Virus record (IMG/VR): IMGVR_UViG_3300010413_000269
Span: 1-32,896 of that record
DNA length: 32,896 bases
Direction: 5' to 3' (one strand)
Source of the DNA: a virus
The notes under the pieces are model-generated. The model saw only the letters and a program-made list of their open reading frames with translations. It searched no databases and had not been told where the DNA came from. The number at the start of each line of letters is the position of its first letter. The stretch's first letter is position 1. The position numbers and the translations under genes are program-made. This document shows, piece by piece, positions 10,213-27,629 of this stretch.

Positions 10213-10458
10213 TTAAACTCCATTCATCCTTGGAAAAAACGGATGAAGCGAAGTAGCTTGACGACCAACAGGCATGTTTCTAATCATAGTAAAACGCCTT
10301 GGTTGATAATAAATAGGTGCATATGAAAAATTCACAAGTCCCTGGTCAAACGGTCCAGTTTTAGCCAGAGGATAGTTGTAAATTCCACCACCCAGAGAAC
10401 GAATTCCGAAAGATCGGCCTTCACCACTGATAGAAAGGTCCAGAAGGGCCTTCACCAC
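10213..10458 (-). pseudogene. Displaced C-terminal end of the major capsid protein
   Basis: This 81-codon frame opens at a GTG inside the capsid gene and overlaps its end. Its first residues (LLDLSISGEG) repeat the end of the capsid frame because both come from the two copies of a 31-bp tandem duplication. Its remaining 67 residues (including VNFSYAPIYYQPRRFTMIRNMP) read like the last strands of an HK97-fold capsid protein. Removing one 31-bp copy joins the two frames into one of 500 codons including the stop. It is therefore best read as the 3' part of the capsid gene, not as a separate gene. Confidence 0.8.
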
Positions 10459-10477
10459 TGATAGAAAGGTCCAGAAG
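10416..10477. repeat. Exact 31-bp tandem duplication inside the capsid gene
   Basis: Copy one is 10416-10446 and copy two 10447-10477, identical over 31 bases starting GGCCTTCACC. Because 31 is not a multiple of three it shifts the capsid frame and creates a stop at 10421-10423. Confidence 0.95.
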
Positions 10478-11743
10478 GAAAGCTGTAGTAGTTCCAGGGA
10501 TTATAAAGTTATAATCATAGAAAGTTACAGCAGAAGTTGAGTTCGCAGCAACACGTCCAATAGCTACATAATCAGCAGCACCCTCAGTTGATTCACCGTA
10601 TACAATATAGTATGTTGCCGGGTTAGGATCTCCAGCAGTAGGAGTGATAACCAGACTCATTCTTTGACCGGCTGCAATTGTGGTTGCAGCAGAAGTTTCA
10701 ATTGCAGTTGATACACCAAAACGGTTACCAGCAGCAACTTTATACTTATATCCAGTTCCACCACCAGACGGGCGTAAATCAGTATCAGTCCACTTACTTG
10801 TCGCTGGAGCAGCATCAGCCACAGCCGATGGAACCACAGACAACGGAGCCAATGGAGCACGAGCAGCAACAGAAGTTACAGGGACATCGTTTTCATAGGC
10901 ACTTGACAGAAACAGGTCAGGAATTGGAGTAATAGCACCGAACTGAGTATTAATCTTAGTTACGGAAGTTCCAAGCTGTGCGCTTCCATCAGGACCAAAT
11001 CCATAATTCCAACGCTGACGGTTAGTAGTTGCAGACTCAGTAATAATTCTTCCAAGCTGGTTTAGACCACCAGTAGAAGAAAACAATTTCAGATCGCTTG
11101 TGCTACCATAGTTATCCAGGATAACTCCGGTAAGATCAGAGAATTGCTGCTGAGTAGGCAGTGAACCACGAAGGTCAAGGATGTGGTCAGTTGAACCCAG
11201 ATCTACAATAGTTTTTTCGAATCCATCTACAGATTCAGTAACCATTGTGCTATCGCCTTTATACGCATTGAAGGTAAAAGTGTTTAGCAGTCTTTTTAGA
11301 GCAGCCTCTTTAGCTTCTGTTACGGCAGGGGAAAGAGTTTCAACTTGCTGTGCAACATCACCAGCTTTCCAAATTTGTCTCAGAAACTTAATATATGAGT
11401 GCTGACGCCTAAAATCAGGATCGGCCTCAGATGGATTCTCAAGCTGGCCTACCATACCGGTAGCCTGACCATAAGAAATACGCTGTGCATATTCCTCCAC
11501 TGTGCTTCGAGCCTTTTCCATCATTGGTCGAAGCGTATTCCAGAGAACATAATGACTATCTCTAACCTGTAGGTTATTGATAATATTCTCAAGAGACTGC
11601 GGCTGAAGAGCACCAAGTGATTGAAGCGACGCAGAATCAGTAATGCCCTCCATTGCTTCAAGAGCTTTAGCAATATGGTCAAACTCTACCGAAGTAGGAG
11701 CACCCATAGAGCCAGTGCTTGACATAAAATCAAATGCTGACAT
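10421..11743 (-). CDS. Major capsid protein, C-terminus displaced by a 31-bp duplication
   Basis: As read, the protein has 440 residues; without the duplicated 31 bp it would be 499. The N-terminal 280 residues have the helix-strand pattern of an HK97-fold capsid protein (N-arm, E-loop, spine helix around ETLSPAVTEAKEAALKRLLNTFTFNAYKG). Residues about 290-415 look like an inserted fibronectin/Ig-like surface domain (GTGYKYKVAAGNRFGVS and TYYIVYGESTEGAADY). An IAKA at 24-27 near the N-terminus could be a prohead-protease site. Its position after protease and scaffold, and the strong GGAGG ribosome-binding site, fit the most abundant virion protein. The truncation is probably an assembly error or a recent mutation, because the C-terminal strands are expected to be essential. 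Confidence 0.85.
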   Translation of the reverse strand: MSAFDFMSSTGSMGAPTSVEFDHIAKALEAMEGITDSASLQSLGALQPQSLENIINNLQVRDSHYVLWNTLRPMMEKARSTVEEYAQRISYGQATGMVGQLENPSEADPDFRRQHSYIKFLRQIWKAGDVAQQVETLSPAVTEAKEAALKRLLNTFTFNAYKGDSTMVTESVDGFEKTIVDLGSTDHILDLRGSLPTQQQFSDLTGVILDNYGSTSDLKLFSSTGGLNQLGRIITESATTNRQRWNYGFGPDGSAQLGTSVTKINTQFGAITPIPDLFLSSAYENDVPVTSVAARAPLAPLSVVPSAVADAAPATSKWTDTDLRPSGGGTGYKYKVAAGNRFGVSTAIETSAATTIAAGQRMSLVITPTAGDPNPATYYIVYGESTEGAADYVAIGRVAANSTSAVTFYDYNFIIPGTTTAFLLDLSISGEGPSGPFYQW

Positions 11744-15805: not shown

Positions 15806-16324
15806 TTATGATACCGCCTTTATGACTTCCGGTGCTTGTGCCGGTTTATTATGATTGCTTTTATTAATCCACTGCCTGAACTGATCGATTGTCATCGGCT
15901 CAATTGAAAGAATATTTTCTTCCCATCCATCATCATAATTAGACAAATATCCATCTACAGCATCATCCATGACACTGAATCCCACCATTACTTTATGTTC
16001 ATCAAATGAATCTTTGCCTTTTTTTGATTGATTTATAATATAAACAATTTCTGATTCTGGATCGGGACCGATAAAAACATCTATATGATCGCCATCATTT
16101 CCAGTTGTTCCTTTGATGTATCCATAATCTAATGTGATCTTATTTGACCATTTATTTCCATCGGCATCCATCCCGCTTCGGATAGATCCTTTTTTATTCT
16201 CAATGGCTATATTAAATCCATGAATCTTTACATGGTCTTTCTTGTAGTTACCGGCTTCTTTTTGTGCTTCGGTTGGTTGTTTTGATTTTAATATTAGATT
16301 TGATAAATGGACAAATTCATTCAT
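15806..16324 (-). CDS. Inorganic-pyrophosphatase-like domain protein
   Basis: This 172-aa protein has the conserved run of the small phage and mobile-element domain called inorganic-pyrophosphatase-like in polyvalent proteins. It reads IHGFNIAIENKKGSIRSG, then YGYIKGTTGNDGDHIDVFIG (about 89-108), then YIINQS, FDEHKVMVGF and a final FRQWI. The D/E-rich G-x-DGDHIDVF segment is where pyrophosphatases bind metal. Such domains are thought to act on phosphorylated substrates or protect incoming phage DNA, but this is not established. The N-terminus (VHLSNLILKSK, 5-15) resembles the ILKAK segments of neighbouring genes. It ends directly at the start of the 73-aa gene. Confidence 0.75.
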   Translation of the reverse strand: MNEFVHLSNLILKSKQPTEAQKEAGNYKKDHVKIHGFNIAIENKKGSIRSGMDADGNKWSNKITLDYGYIKGTTGNDGDHIDVFIGPDPESEIVYIINQSKKGKDSFDEHKVMVGFSVMDDAVDGYLSNYDDGWEENILSIEPMTIDQFRQWINKSNHNKPAQAPEVIKAVS

Positions 16325-17811: not shown

Positions 17812-17868
17812 TTAACTATCTTATAATAGCCACCATATATTTCAATGATGACTATGAAAGAGAGTTAA
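17812..17868 (-). ncRNA. Structured hairpin element, copy 1
   Basis: An inner 11-bp stem with two G-U pairs (17826-17836 with 17845-17855) and an 8-base loop sits on an outer stem of 6 bp plus 4 bp with one mismatch (17812-17825 with 17856-17868). The stop codon of the 76-aa gene is in the outer stem and the 46-aa gene follows. The same arrangement is seen in copy 2. Confidence 0.7.
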
Positions 17869-18095
17869 ACTGCAATTATTCTTACAGCTTCTTTTGCTTC
17901 GTCTCCTGATAATTCAAGAAAAGAAACGCTATCGTTTACATCAAATTGCTTGCTTTTCTTGAGGTAATTTAATTCGTCACCATCAATGTAAACAGAAACT
18001 ATTTGTTCCAAATCTGCCCTTGGTATTCTCATTGATACAGGAAGTAACCAATGTGTATCTTTAATCTCGTTATTTTCTTTGTAATAAATTATCAT
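17865..18095 (-). CDS. Unknown 76-aa protein
   Basis: The ATG at 18095 is preferred because AAAGGAGAAAGG lies directly upstream; a further upstream ATG at 18113 would place that site inside the gene. The 76-aa product (MIIYYKENNEIKDTHWLLP and a predicted alpha/beta body) is soluble and acidic. Its message carries a leader of about 235 bases that begins at a hammerhead ribozyme cleavage site and contains five hairpins, which suggests RNA-level control. Function unknown. Confidence 0.65.
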   Translation of the reverse strand: MIIYYKENNEIKDTHWLLPVSMRIPRADLEQIVSVYIDGDELNYLKKSKQFDVNDSVSFLELSGDEAKEAVRIIAV

Positions 18096-18176
18096 CGTCC
18101 TTTCTCCTTTCATTCAAATACTTATCTATATTAAAAATAAGTGCATATTGTCCAGCTTATTTCATCTGAACGTATG

Positions 18177-18295
18177 AATCGGCTTTTCCGATTAAAGCAT
18201 TCACCGATAATCCCCGGTGAACCAGGTATTGAACTATCCGGTTTTTCCTAATAGTTCAAATTTCAATTGCTCCGGGCCAGGGAGCGTGACGTCAC
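18177..18295 (-). ncRNA. Run of five hairpins in the leader of the 76-aa gene
   Basis: In order on the minus strand: a perfect 10-bp palindrome GTGACGTCAC (18286-18295); GCTCC/GGAGC with a 7-base loop (18269-18285); a 9-bp stem TTGAACTAT/ATAGTTCAA (18229-18237, 18251-18259); a 7-bp stem TTCACCG/CGGTGAA (18200-18206, 18215-18221); and a 6-bp AATCGG/CCGATT stem (18177-18182, 18188-18193). The segment is more GC-rich than the neighbouring genes and has no reading frame of note. It does not match a riboswitch I know. It is the 3' neighbour of the hammerhead ribozyme. Confidence 0.6.
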
Positions 18296-18325
18296 TTAGT
18301 TTGTGATATATGCTTGGTTTAGCTT

Positions 18326-18391
18326 TCCACTATCCTGCATTATTGTTTTACAGGATTTCGACCGGTTGCTATACGGTTCTCATCAGGTGGA
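18326..18391 (-). ncRNA. Hammerhead self-cleaving ribozyme (stem I open, type I)
   Basis: All core parts are present in order on the minus strand. Stem I is TCCAC/GTGGA (18387-18391 with 18326-18330). CTGATGA is at 18380-18386. Stem II is at 18360-18379 (five pairs, one bulged A, 9-base loop). GAAA is at 18356-18359. Stem III is TCCTG/CAGGA (18351-18355 with 18333-18337, 13-base loop), and the cleavage dinucleotide is UA at 18332-18331. Cleavage is expected between 18331 and 18330. It begins five bases after the stop of the 59-aa gene and separates that gene from the structured leader of the 76-aa gene. Confidence 0.85.
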
Positions 18392-18396
18392 TGTTC

Positions 18397-18576
18397 TTAT
18401 TTATTTTTTAATATTTCATCAATTGACAAAATTGAATCTTGAAAATATGAAACATATCTTTCTTTTACCCAAAAAGTTAATTCATAAAAATCATTTTTCT
18501 TTGTTGATTTAACCATTGGTTGTCCAGCAATTGCCAAAAATTCTTTTGTTGATTTTACTGTGATTGTTGTTCTCAT
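18397..18576 (-). CDS. 59-aa small protein
   Basis: The ATG at 18576 has GAGAGGGA about eight bases upstream. The product of 59 residues begins MRTTITVKSTKEFLAIAGQP, with a beta-like N-terminus and a helical, aromatic C-terminus (FWVKERYVSYFQDS). It is the first gene of the leftward small-gene unit behind the promoter at 18596-18623, and the hammerhead follows its stop. No family is recognised. Confidence 0.7.
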   Translation of the reverse strand: MRTTITVKSTKEFLAIAGQPMVKSTKKNDFYELTFWVKERYVSYFQDSILSIDEILKNK

Positions 18577-18623: not shown

Positions 18624-18672
18624 AAAAATTAAAACACTTTTTTTATAAAAACGAAAAAAAATTACTTTTTTA

Positions 18673-18705
18673 TTGACACATTTTTGCCGTCTATTTAACT
18701 ATAAA
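18673..18705 (+). promoter_or_regulatory. Possible rightward promoter of the plus-strand gene
   Basis: A perfect TTGACA (18673-18678) precedes TATAAA (18700-18705), but the spacing is 21 bases, longer than the usual 16-18; at 17 bases the hexamer is TAACTA, a poor match. The -35 is convincing and the -10 is uncertain. AAAGGAAG follows before the ATG at 18734. Confidence 0.4.
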
Positions 18706-18733
18706 AACACAAACAAGAAAGGAAGAAAAACAA

Positions 18734-18931
18734 ATGTATTCACAATCAGACATTGAAGAAATATTACTAGTAAAAGAATTAAATGAGAAAAAGCAAAGAC
18801 ACGCTTTTAGTATTGCAAGCATGATGAAAAGAAAAAGAGAATCTATAATGCAAAACAAGCAAAAAGATTTTGACCTGTATAGAATTAATGCAAAAACTGG
18901 AGAGAAAGAAAGTATCCCCGTCCTTAAATAA
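18734..18931 (+). CDS. Lone plus-strand 65-aa protein
   Basis: This is the only convincing gene on the plus strand. The 65-aa product is basic and helical (for example HAFSIASMMKRKRESIMQNK) with an acidic N-terminal helix. It has a good ribosome-binding site (AAAGGAAG, ten bases upstream), a TTGACA upstream and an intrinsic terminator whose stem overlaps the last codons. No helix-turn-helix is clear. Its divergent placement next to the small-gene unit suggests a regulator or early gene, which is inference. Confidence 0.7.
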   Translation: MYSQSDIEEILLVKELNEKKQRHAFSIASMMKRKRESIMQNKQKDFDLYRINAKTGEKESIPVLK

Positions 18932-18945
18932 GACGGGGATTTTAT
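18914..18945. terminator. Bidirectional terminator between convergent genes
   Basis: ATCCCCGTC (18914-18922) pairs with GACGGGGAT (18932-18940) over a 9-base loop. The plus strand continues TTTATT; the minus strand is less T-rich. It ends the plus-strand gene and lies between it and the tail tube gene. Confidence 0.85.
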
Positions 18946-24261: not shown

Positions 24262-24789
24262 TCAACCGCACTTTTCTTCAAGGTATTCGTCATACTCATG
24301 AAGTTCTACACCTTGCGCTCCATGATCCGCCATCGCATTACCGCCGAGAATATTAGCACGATCAAAGATTTCTCTAAATAGGGAAAGCTCTTCTGTTTGT
24401 TCTTTATTGAACCAGTCCAGAAAGTCCCGCGTATTGTATTGTCTTTTGCGGTCTGCCAGTTCTGAAAGATCAAGGATACTTTGAGTTACTGCATGTTCAT
24501 GAGTAAGTGATTGTGATACTGCGTCATAAATACTTTTGAAATCATTGGGGGGCAATTGACCGGGATTAACCATCGGGTTTGCATTCATATCATTCATGAA
24601 CTCAATGATTTTGTGCATGTGGACAAGTTCTTCTTCTGATTGCTTTTTGAAAAACTTATATCCGCCAACAAGCGATCTTTTTGAACACCAATTGGCCATA
24701 CTCAAATATAGAAAGGATGAATACGCTTCGTTCTTGATTTGTTCGTTTAATGCTCGCTCTAATTCAGGATCAAGTGTGACTTCTTTCAT
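24262..24789 (-). CDS. ftnA: Ferritin (bacterial FtnA-like non-heme ferritin)
   Basis: This 175-aa protein aligns by eye along nearly its full length with bacterial FtnA. The helix-A motif LNEQIKNEAYSS is followed by YLSMANWCS, EEELVHM, LTHEHAVTQSI and FLDWFNKEQTEE. The ferroxidase residues are present: Glu21, Tyr28, Glu54, His57, Glu98, Gln131 and Glu134 (FtnA Glu17, Tyr24, Glu50, His53, Glu94, Gln127, Glu130). Its length matches the family, so it should assemble into a 24-mer cage that oxidises and stores iron. It has its own extended -10 promoter. Ferritin is rare in phages; here it may protect against iron and peroxide or be a cargo or structural relic. Confidence 0.9.
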   Translation of the reverse strand: MKEVTLDPELERALNEQIKNEAYSSFLYLSMANWCSKRSLVGGYKFFKKQSEEELVHMHKIIEFMNDMNANPMVNPGQLPPNDFKSIYDAVSQSLTHEHAVTQSILDLSELADRKRQYNTRDFLDWFNKEQTEELSLFREIFDRANILGGNAMADHGAQGVELHEYDEYLEEKCG

Positions 24790-26792: not shown

Positions 26793-27629
26793 TTACTTAA
26801 TATTAATGAATGGCACTGTAGATCCAGGGATCATAGATGTAGGAAGTTGACCATTCCATTTTTCAGCATAGATTCTTTGAACTTTTAGTCTCTCCCATTC
26901 AATATTTTTCTCGGACAAACTCTGATTTCGGAGCCTTAAAGATTCTGCTTCACCACGTGCTTCAGCAATTTTCTTGTCTGCTTCAGCTCTTGCTTCAGCC
27001 ACTTCGTTTTCTCTTTGTTGCGCTTTTTGCGTTGCTTGAACCTTAGCATTAAGTGCGTTTGTTACTGCTTCCGGCAATCTTAGATCTCCAATCCAATAAA
27101 GTTTGTCAACAATAATGCCAAATTCAGAAACCTGCCTTGATACGTCTGCTTGAACCTTTTCAATAAGATCAGCTTTCCCAGCACCATATACTGATTCAAT
27201 TTCATAATTTCCAGCAATTTTATTAATTGAATCTCTAACATAGTTGCGTAAATAAATGTCAGTTATTTCATCAGTCCCTTTTCTAAATTTTTCAAACAAA
27301 GCAGATACTTTTGTTGGATCAATATGATACGAAATTCCAACATCAGCTGAAACTTTCATACCCTCTTTTGTCTGAAAAGAAATTGACTCATCATTTTCAG
27401 AACCTTCAGTTACGCTTGCAGTCCATACATAGTTTTGTTGAAATGTTGGAAATAAATATAGCTCTTCATTCATTCCTATATAATATCTTCCAACTCCAAG
27501 CTCTTCATGATCAACACCTTTTGATGTCCCAAGAAGATACACTTTAACACCAACATTGCCAGCTGGAACTTTCGAACATGATGCAATTACAAAAAGCATC
27601 ACAAATAGAATACCAATCTTTTTAACCAT
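26793..27629 (-). CDS. SPFH/prohibitin-like lipoprotein
   Basis: This 278-aa protein starts with a short basic N-terminus, a hydrophobic segment and a lipobox, I-A-S-C at residues 15-18, so it should be a lipoprotein anchored at Cys18. The body is a band-7/prohibitin-type domain: GNVGVKVYLLG near 24-34, FQTKEGMKVSADVGISY and RDSINKIAGNYEIESVYG, then Ala/Glu-rich heptads (ENEVAEARAEADKKIAEARGEAE) that drive ring assembly. SPFH rings organise membranes and proteases. Phage copies are known and their role is unclear; protection of the infected membrane or superinfection exclusion are possibilities. It overlaps the preceding membrane gene by eight bases. Confidence 0.85.
   Translation of the reverse strand: MVKKIGILFVMLFVIASCSKVPAGNVGVKVYLLGTSKGVDHEELGVGRYYIGMNEELYLFPTFQQNYVWTASVTEGSENDESISFQTKEGMKVSADVGISYHIDPTKVSALFEKFRKGTDEITDIYLRNYVRDSINKIAGNYEIESVYGAGKADLIEKVQADVSRQVSEFGIIVDKLYWIGDLRLPEAVTNALNAKVQATQKAQQRENEVAEARAEADKKIAEARGEAESLRLRNQSLSEKNIEWERLKVQRIYAEKWNGQLPTSMIPGSTVPFINIK

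Follow-up and report, generated by a model that had tools for sequence, protein, structure and literature searches.

A predicted type I pseudoknot hammerhead ribozyme in a tailed phage, flanked by two small genes

Introduction

Pseudoknot hammerheads of all three types have been described, several of them flanking prophage genes (Perreault et al. 2011, PMC3088659). Cleavage by these ribozymes was observed in vitro and, for the Agrobacterium hammerhead, also upon expression in E. coli; breaking the pseudoknot abolished activity (PMC3088659). The same study reported a hammerhead variant 13 nt upstream of the helicase gene in haloviruses HF1 and HF2.

Here, we analyze a 32.9-kb tailed-phage fragment, IMG/VR record IMGVR_UViG_3300010413_000269; the whole 32,896-nt stretch is referred to as the window. 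A first-pass annotation had proposed a hammerhead at 18391–18326, leaving its strand unstated. We find that a hammerhead is indeed present there, on the minus strand, and our analysis supports reading it as a ribozyme, with self-cleavage predicted from its sequence and a small phage gene on either side. The ribozyme itself fits a known type, and the long folded leader that follows it is the distinctive part of the locus.

Results

Phage genes around the ribozyme

The window contains genes for portal, major head, tail sheath, terminase and DnaB proteins, and its known relatives are only distant. Searches for near relatives of the phage using the 82-aa ORF, the capsid, the tail sheath and DnaB returned either nothing or distant matches only. 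Nearly all genes of the window lie on the minus strand. The hammerhead is located between a 59-aa and a 76-aa ORF (Table 1), in sense orientation and on the same strand as the structural genes. It begins 5 nt past the stop codon of the 59-aa ORF, as first annotated. Neither small protein has a match in PHROG or Pfam, and the 76-aa protein has no relative among viral contigs. A Shine-Dalgarno sequence, AAAGGAG at 18110–18104, precedes the start codon of the 76-aa gene, ATG 18095; an in-frame ATG at 18113 is without a Shine-Dalgarno. No tRNA or tmRNA was found in the window.

Other features of the fragment were recorded in passing. The major head protein gene contains, close to its 3′ end, a perfect 31-bp tandem duplication (10416–10478), which causes a frameshift and premature end of the ORF; the next ORF (10213–10458) is likely to be the C-terminal part. 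The duplication could have arisen in assembly or could be a genuine interruption. Among the tailed-phage genes is one for a ferritin-like protein (PF00210, E 2.4e-32), at 24262–24789 (−), and another, at 26793–27629 (−), encodes a Band 7/SPFH protein with an apparent lipoprotein signal, judged by eye. A stand-alone InPase domain protein (PF18823) is encoded at 15806–16324 (−); in the best-matching phage families, this domain is found mostly within much larger proteins. A lone 65-aa ORF at 18672–18940 (+) runs opposite to the surrounding genes; it has what looks by eye like a promoter, and it ends in a hairpin repeat resembling a terminator.

Table 1. Coordinates of the ribozyme, its leader and the neighbouring genes in the window
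Feature	Position	Strand	Basis
59-aa gene upstream of the hammerhead	18397..18576	-	ORF list; stop 18399-18397
Complete hammerhead, type I (stem I open), including 3′ pseudoknot strand	18320..18391	-	Covariance model R1 match 18391-18317
Stem I, 5′ strand UCCAC	18387..18391	-	Sequence; 5 bp with GUGGA
Core CUGAUGA	18380..18386	-	Sequence
Stem II: G10.1-C11.1, bulged A18378, ACCG/CGGU, loop UAUAGCAAC	18360..18379	-	Fold
Loop II UAGC, pseudoknot strand 1	18368..18371	-	Complementary to 18323-18320
Core GAAA, final A = A15.1	18356..18359	-	Sequence
Stem III AUCCUGUA/UGCAGGAU, 9-nt loop	18332..18356	-	Fold; pair probabilities 0.86-0.999
Predicted cleavage site, after A17 (18331), triplet A-U-A	18330..18331	-	Hammerhead core rules
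Stem I, 3′ strand GUGGA; would form the start of the downstream RNA	18326..18330	-	Sequence
GCUA, pseudoknot strand 2	18320..18323	-	Complementary to loop II UAGC; relatives' alignment columns
Leader predicted to remain on the downstream message	18096..18330	-	235 nt, predicted cleavage site to ATG 18095
Domain of six hairpins, outer stem GCAUAU/AUAUGC	18143..18313	-	Predicted fold
76-aa gene downstream of the hammerhead	17865..18095	-	ORF list; start ATG 18095

Architecture of the hammerhead

Read 5′ to 3′, the element is UCCAC-CUGAUGA-G-A-ACCG-UAUAGCAAC-CGGU-C-GAA-AUCCUGUA-loop-UGCAGGAU-A-GUGGA. The bases that define the class (C3 U G A N G A9, G12 A A A15.1, and U16.1 H17) are all present, as CUGAUGA, GAAA and U-A at 18386–18331. 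Three Watson-Crick stems adjoin this core: stem I of 5 bp, stem II of 1 + 4 bp, and stem III of 8 bp, counting A15.1-U16.1 and one G-U. The first-pass annotation had claimed a complete invariant core (CUGAUGA, GAAA and U-H before the cleavage site) and three stems, including a perfect 5-bp stem I. Both claims are borne out by the sequence, where stem I is UCCAC/GUGGA, stem II has a bulged A and stem III a G-U. A-U-A is one of the less common hammerhead cleavage triplets; U-A at the cleavage site is also seen in 7 distinct relatives.

Stem I is open while stems II and III are closed by loops, as in the type I pseudoknot hammerheads of phages. Two further features of that group are the position on the sense strand between genes of a phage operon and, judged by complementarity, the match of loop II UAGC to a GCUA 3′ of stem I. 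This GCUA starts two nucleotides past stem I and would form a candidate 4-bp pseudoknot with loop II. High-speed hammerheads need a tertiary contact of this loop II/tail kind. Because GCUA at 18323–18320 can pair with loop II, we place the end of the ribozyme at 18320. The first-pass annotation had the start right (18391) but closed the element at 18326, missing the GCUA strand.

Locally, the RNA is predicted to fold in a hammerhead-like manner (−16.7 kcal/mol, z −2.26). When the whole leader region was folded without a pseudoknot term, the global energy minimum (−78.2 kcal/mol) disrupted the ribozyme and was better by 2.7 kcal/mol than the fold constrained to contain the hammerhead (−75.5 kcal/mol).

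Related hammerheads in viral contigs

A degenerate pattern taken from the window, with fixed stem I (CCAC/GTGG), CTGATGAG, CGAAA and TA only, matched 7 viral-contig stretches; allowing any cleavable base, the number was 54. From viral contigs, 46 distinct hammerheads were obtained besides that of the window. The CCAC/GUGG of stem I is common to all 46, having been set by the search pattern. A further viral scan with the same loop II added a few more hammerheads and no counterpart of the leader.

We aligned 26 of the 46 distinct relatives, leaving the window out (alignment A1). Neither stem II nor stem III had been constrained by the pattern, yet both pair and covary among these 26. So does the contact between loop II and the tail: 87.4% of cells are paired, versus 30–48% in slid controls, the covariation score is 0.280 versus 0.114 in shuffles, and both sides change in 4/4 pairs. 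In a permutation test of loop II against tails, the mean longest complement was 3.09 versus 2.46, a value reached in 0/2000 permutations. With the window included, 16/47 hammerheads have at least four Watson-Crick loop II/tail pairs, compared with 4.7 expected. The contact in the window occupies the covarying alignment columns of its relatives. An extra nucleotide beside G10.1-C11.1, corresponding to the bulged A of the window, recurs in several relatives (L031, L043, L050, L070 and others). The loop II/tail contact missed at first, together with 46 distinct relatives of the same design, strengthens the original identification.

A covariance search had been suggested in the first-pass annotation. 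Model R1, built from the 26 with the window held out, finds the site at 18391–18317 as its sole match in the window (60.6 bits, E 6.7e-15). This E-value is too favourable, since the relatives' pattern was taken from the window and the stem I and core columns therefore match by construction. A fair control is given by those pattern matches whose fold is not that of a hammerhead. These score 18–20 bits with R1, about 40 bits below the window, a gap that is due to features absent from the search pattern. The pattern also matched 7 sites in a genome collection. Three of these adopt a hammerhead fold (L086, L087 and L082, the last identical to L032); the other four do not, and were used as a chance control. 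We also generated 79.2 Mb of order-1 Markov sequence and applied looser rules (stems I and III of at least 5 bp). Under these rules 13 matches were found, or about 0.01 per window, in agreement with the earlier judgement that a chance origin is very unlikely.

The relatives' ribozymes are intergenic, mostly 24–61 nt upstream of a start codon. When 40 whole records were searched for such ribozymes, 39/40 had at least one, 14/40 had two or more, and the maximum was 7; the window has one match in its 33 kb. Along single viral contigs, series of 2–7 hammerheads are seen (L030, L050, L058, L074, L080 and others), and in L030, two serial hammerheads precede related genes. None of the sites in these series reaches the curated cut-off of Rfam in the loci tested. 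A subgroup of relatives (L037, L042, L056, L057, L072, L077) has a longer stem III and tails such as UUAUCCACAG, followed by 200–400 nt without a clear gene; this subgroup is without the loop II/tail contact.

A circular RNA unit of the retrozyme or viroid kind was considered and rejected: the window contains a single match to a type I or III layout, hence no second hammerhead of these types, and no type II hammerhead by Rfam.

Comparison with Rfam

At gathering and relaxed thresholds, Rfam assigns no family to the ribozyme or the leader. The best Rfam alignment of the site is to RAGATH-1-hammerhead (RF03152), with which it shares the core, stem I and stem III. It scores 22.1 bits, against a gathering cut-off of 56.3 bits, and has no convincing counterpart of the extra 5′ hairpin of that family. 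Hammerhead_1 (RF00163) represents the same ribozyme class and core, but its curated model reports no match at the site, which lies below the gathering cut-off. The relatives behave similarly. In 15 relative loci tested, the curated cut-offs report no type I site, and the sole Rfam hammerhead is a type II in L065, elsewhere in that locus. Type I sites in these 15 loci thus fall below the curated cut-off, which implies that routine annotation misses this subtype.

A long folded leader

Cleavage at the predicted site would leave a leader of 235 nt, the length first annotated, provided that translation starts at ATG 18095. Its predicted fold comprises six hairpins within an outer GCAUAU/AUAUGC stem plus one additional hairpin, instead of the five hairpins proposed earlier. 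The earlier description of this linked leader as unusual stands, given that other copies are mostly 24–61 nt from the start codon. Segment 18326–18114 has a minimum free energy of −58.6 kcal/mol (z −4.36), with 0/200 shuffles as stable. In a scan of 104 stretches across the window, with 20 shuffles per stretch, the leader ranked as the most structured; its z of −5.8 there is rough, given the small number of shuffles.

No homologue of the leader was found in Rfam, and a BLAST search of annotated phages and plasmids with the region gave no match. A single-sequence covariance model of the leader likewise found none in 62 other loci, 40 whole records and 25 further loci, although a null from a single sequence is a weak one. 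A 16-mer from one leader hairpin has six viral matches; none is matched by the leader model, and these were taken as chance. Since the leader is an orphan sequence, its fold is a single-sequence prediction. For its putative function, end protection, protein binding or translational control would be our guesses.

Discussion

We propose that the type I pseudoknot hammerhead cleaves in cis the phage operon transcript to which it belongs, separating the 59-aa gene from the 76-aa gene, and hold this reading with a confidence of 0.86. The hammerhead architecture, its sense intergenic placement, and the covariation of stems and tertiary contact among its relatives are all apparent in the sequences. 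Cleavage itself, the chemistry of the ends and an effect on expression we infer. The transcript would be cut between 18331 and 18330. Stems II and III, ending in a 2′,3′-cyclic phosphate, would stay at the 3′ end of the upstream message, and the downstream message would begin with a 5′-OH, followed by the 235-nt strongly folded leader. Such ends (5′-OH; 2′,3′-cyclic phosphate) are established hammerhead chemistry. The likely role would be co-transcriptional processing of polycistronic phage RNA. The message for the 76-aa protein would thereby be split off, and its new 5′ end would in turn allow it a stability and a level of translation distinct from those of the rest of the transcript.

It is also conceivable that the ribozyme mainly sets the 5′ end of a separate six-hairpin RNA, trans-acting or protein-binding, whose 3′ end is freed by a host nuclease. 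The domain has its own closing stem, its stability relative to shuffles (z −4.36) and its top rank among the 104 stretches are in line with this idea, and most other hammerheads are without such a long leader. On the other hand, the fold comes from one sequence and has no covariation support, no homologue of the domain was found in Rfam, in annotated phages and plasmids, in hammerhead-bearing records or with a model of the domain, and the domain lies directly upstream of a good Shine-Dalgarno. For these reasons, we consider a separate RNA unlikely, though it is the alternative that fares best. Similarly tentative, and likewise improbable on balance, is the broader notion that the hammerhead belongs with the six-hairpin domain to a single functional unit, in which self-cleavage would define the 5′ end of either a structured RNA or a nuclease-resistant or protein-binding leader. 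Such a unit would amount to a ribozyme-matured phage riboregulator, a kind without description in the literature surveyed, and we regard this interpretation as equally doubtful.

Another possibility is that the ribozyme acts as a translation switch. Before cleavage, its 5′ strand (CAUC, CCU) could pair around the translation start of the 76-aa gene, at the start codon (GAUG) and in the Shine-Dalgarno region (AGG), and cleavage would remove that strand. The minimum-energy structure predicted for uncleaved RNA includes this pairing, whose probability is about 0.3. Yet it consists of just 7 interrupted bp over about 290 nt, CAU can pair with any AUG, which makes a chance pairing likely, and the start region becomes only partly more open after cleavage. 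Moreover, local co-transcriptional folding should favour the hammerhead. We therefore consider a switch of this sort quite improbable. Least credible of all is a chance likeness or a decayed, inactive hammerhead: the Rfam curated cut-offs are unreached (22.1 versus 56.3 bits for RAGATH-1-hammerhead, the best), but clear hammerheads in the relatives also lie below them, chance pattern matches score about 40 bits lower, and no core base, stem or pair of the 4-bp tertiary contact is missing here, with the register being that of the family.

The locus offers a clean, easily tested case of a phage that may rely on RNA alone to cut its operon message. Hammerheads of this subtype occur on dozens of viral contigs, where series of 2–7 are frequent. 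The long folded leader provides a concrete system for asking why phages separate genes with self-cleaving ribozymes.

Finally, we return to the described systems. In HHphage of HF1/HF2 (PMC3088659), as here, a hammerhead lies upstream of the start codon of a phage gene. HHphage, however, is a variant and sits 13 nt before a helicase start, whereas our site has the consensus core and sits 235 nt before a gene of no known family. The (pro)phage pseudoknot hammerheads of PMC3088659 are closer: they share with our site the consensus core, the pairing of loop II with a strand beside stem I, and a location between phage genes. The site fits this group, and its ribozyme is thus of a kind already known. 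Several copies per genome are frequent in the group, though not a requirement, and one copy is present in this 33-kb fragment, which covers part of its genome. The site differs from the group in having a new sequence, from an unclassified tailed phage, and in being followed by a 235-nt folded leader.
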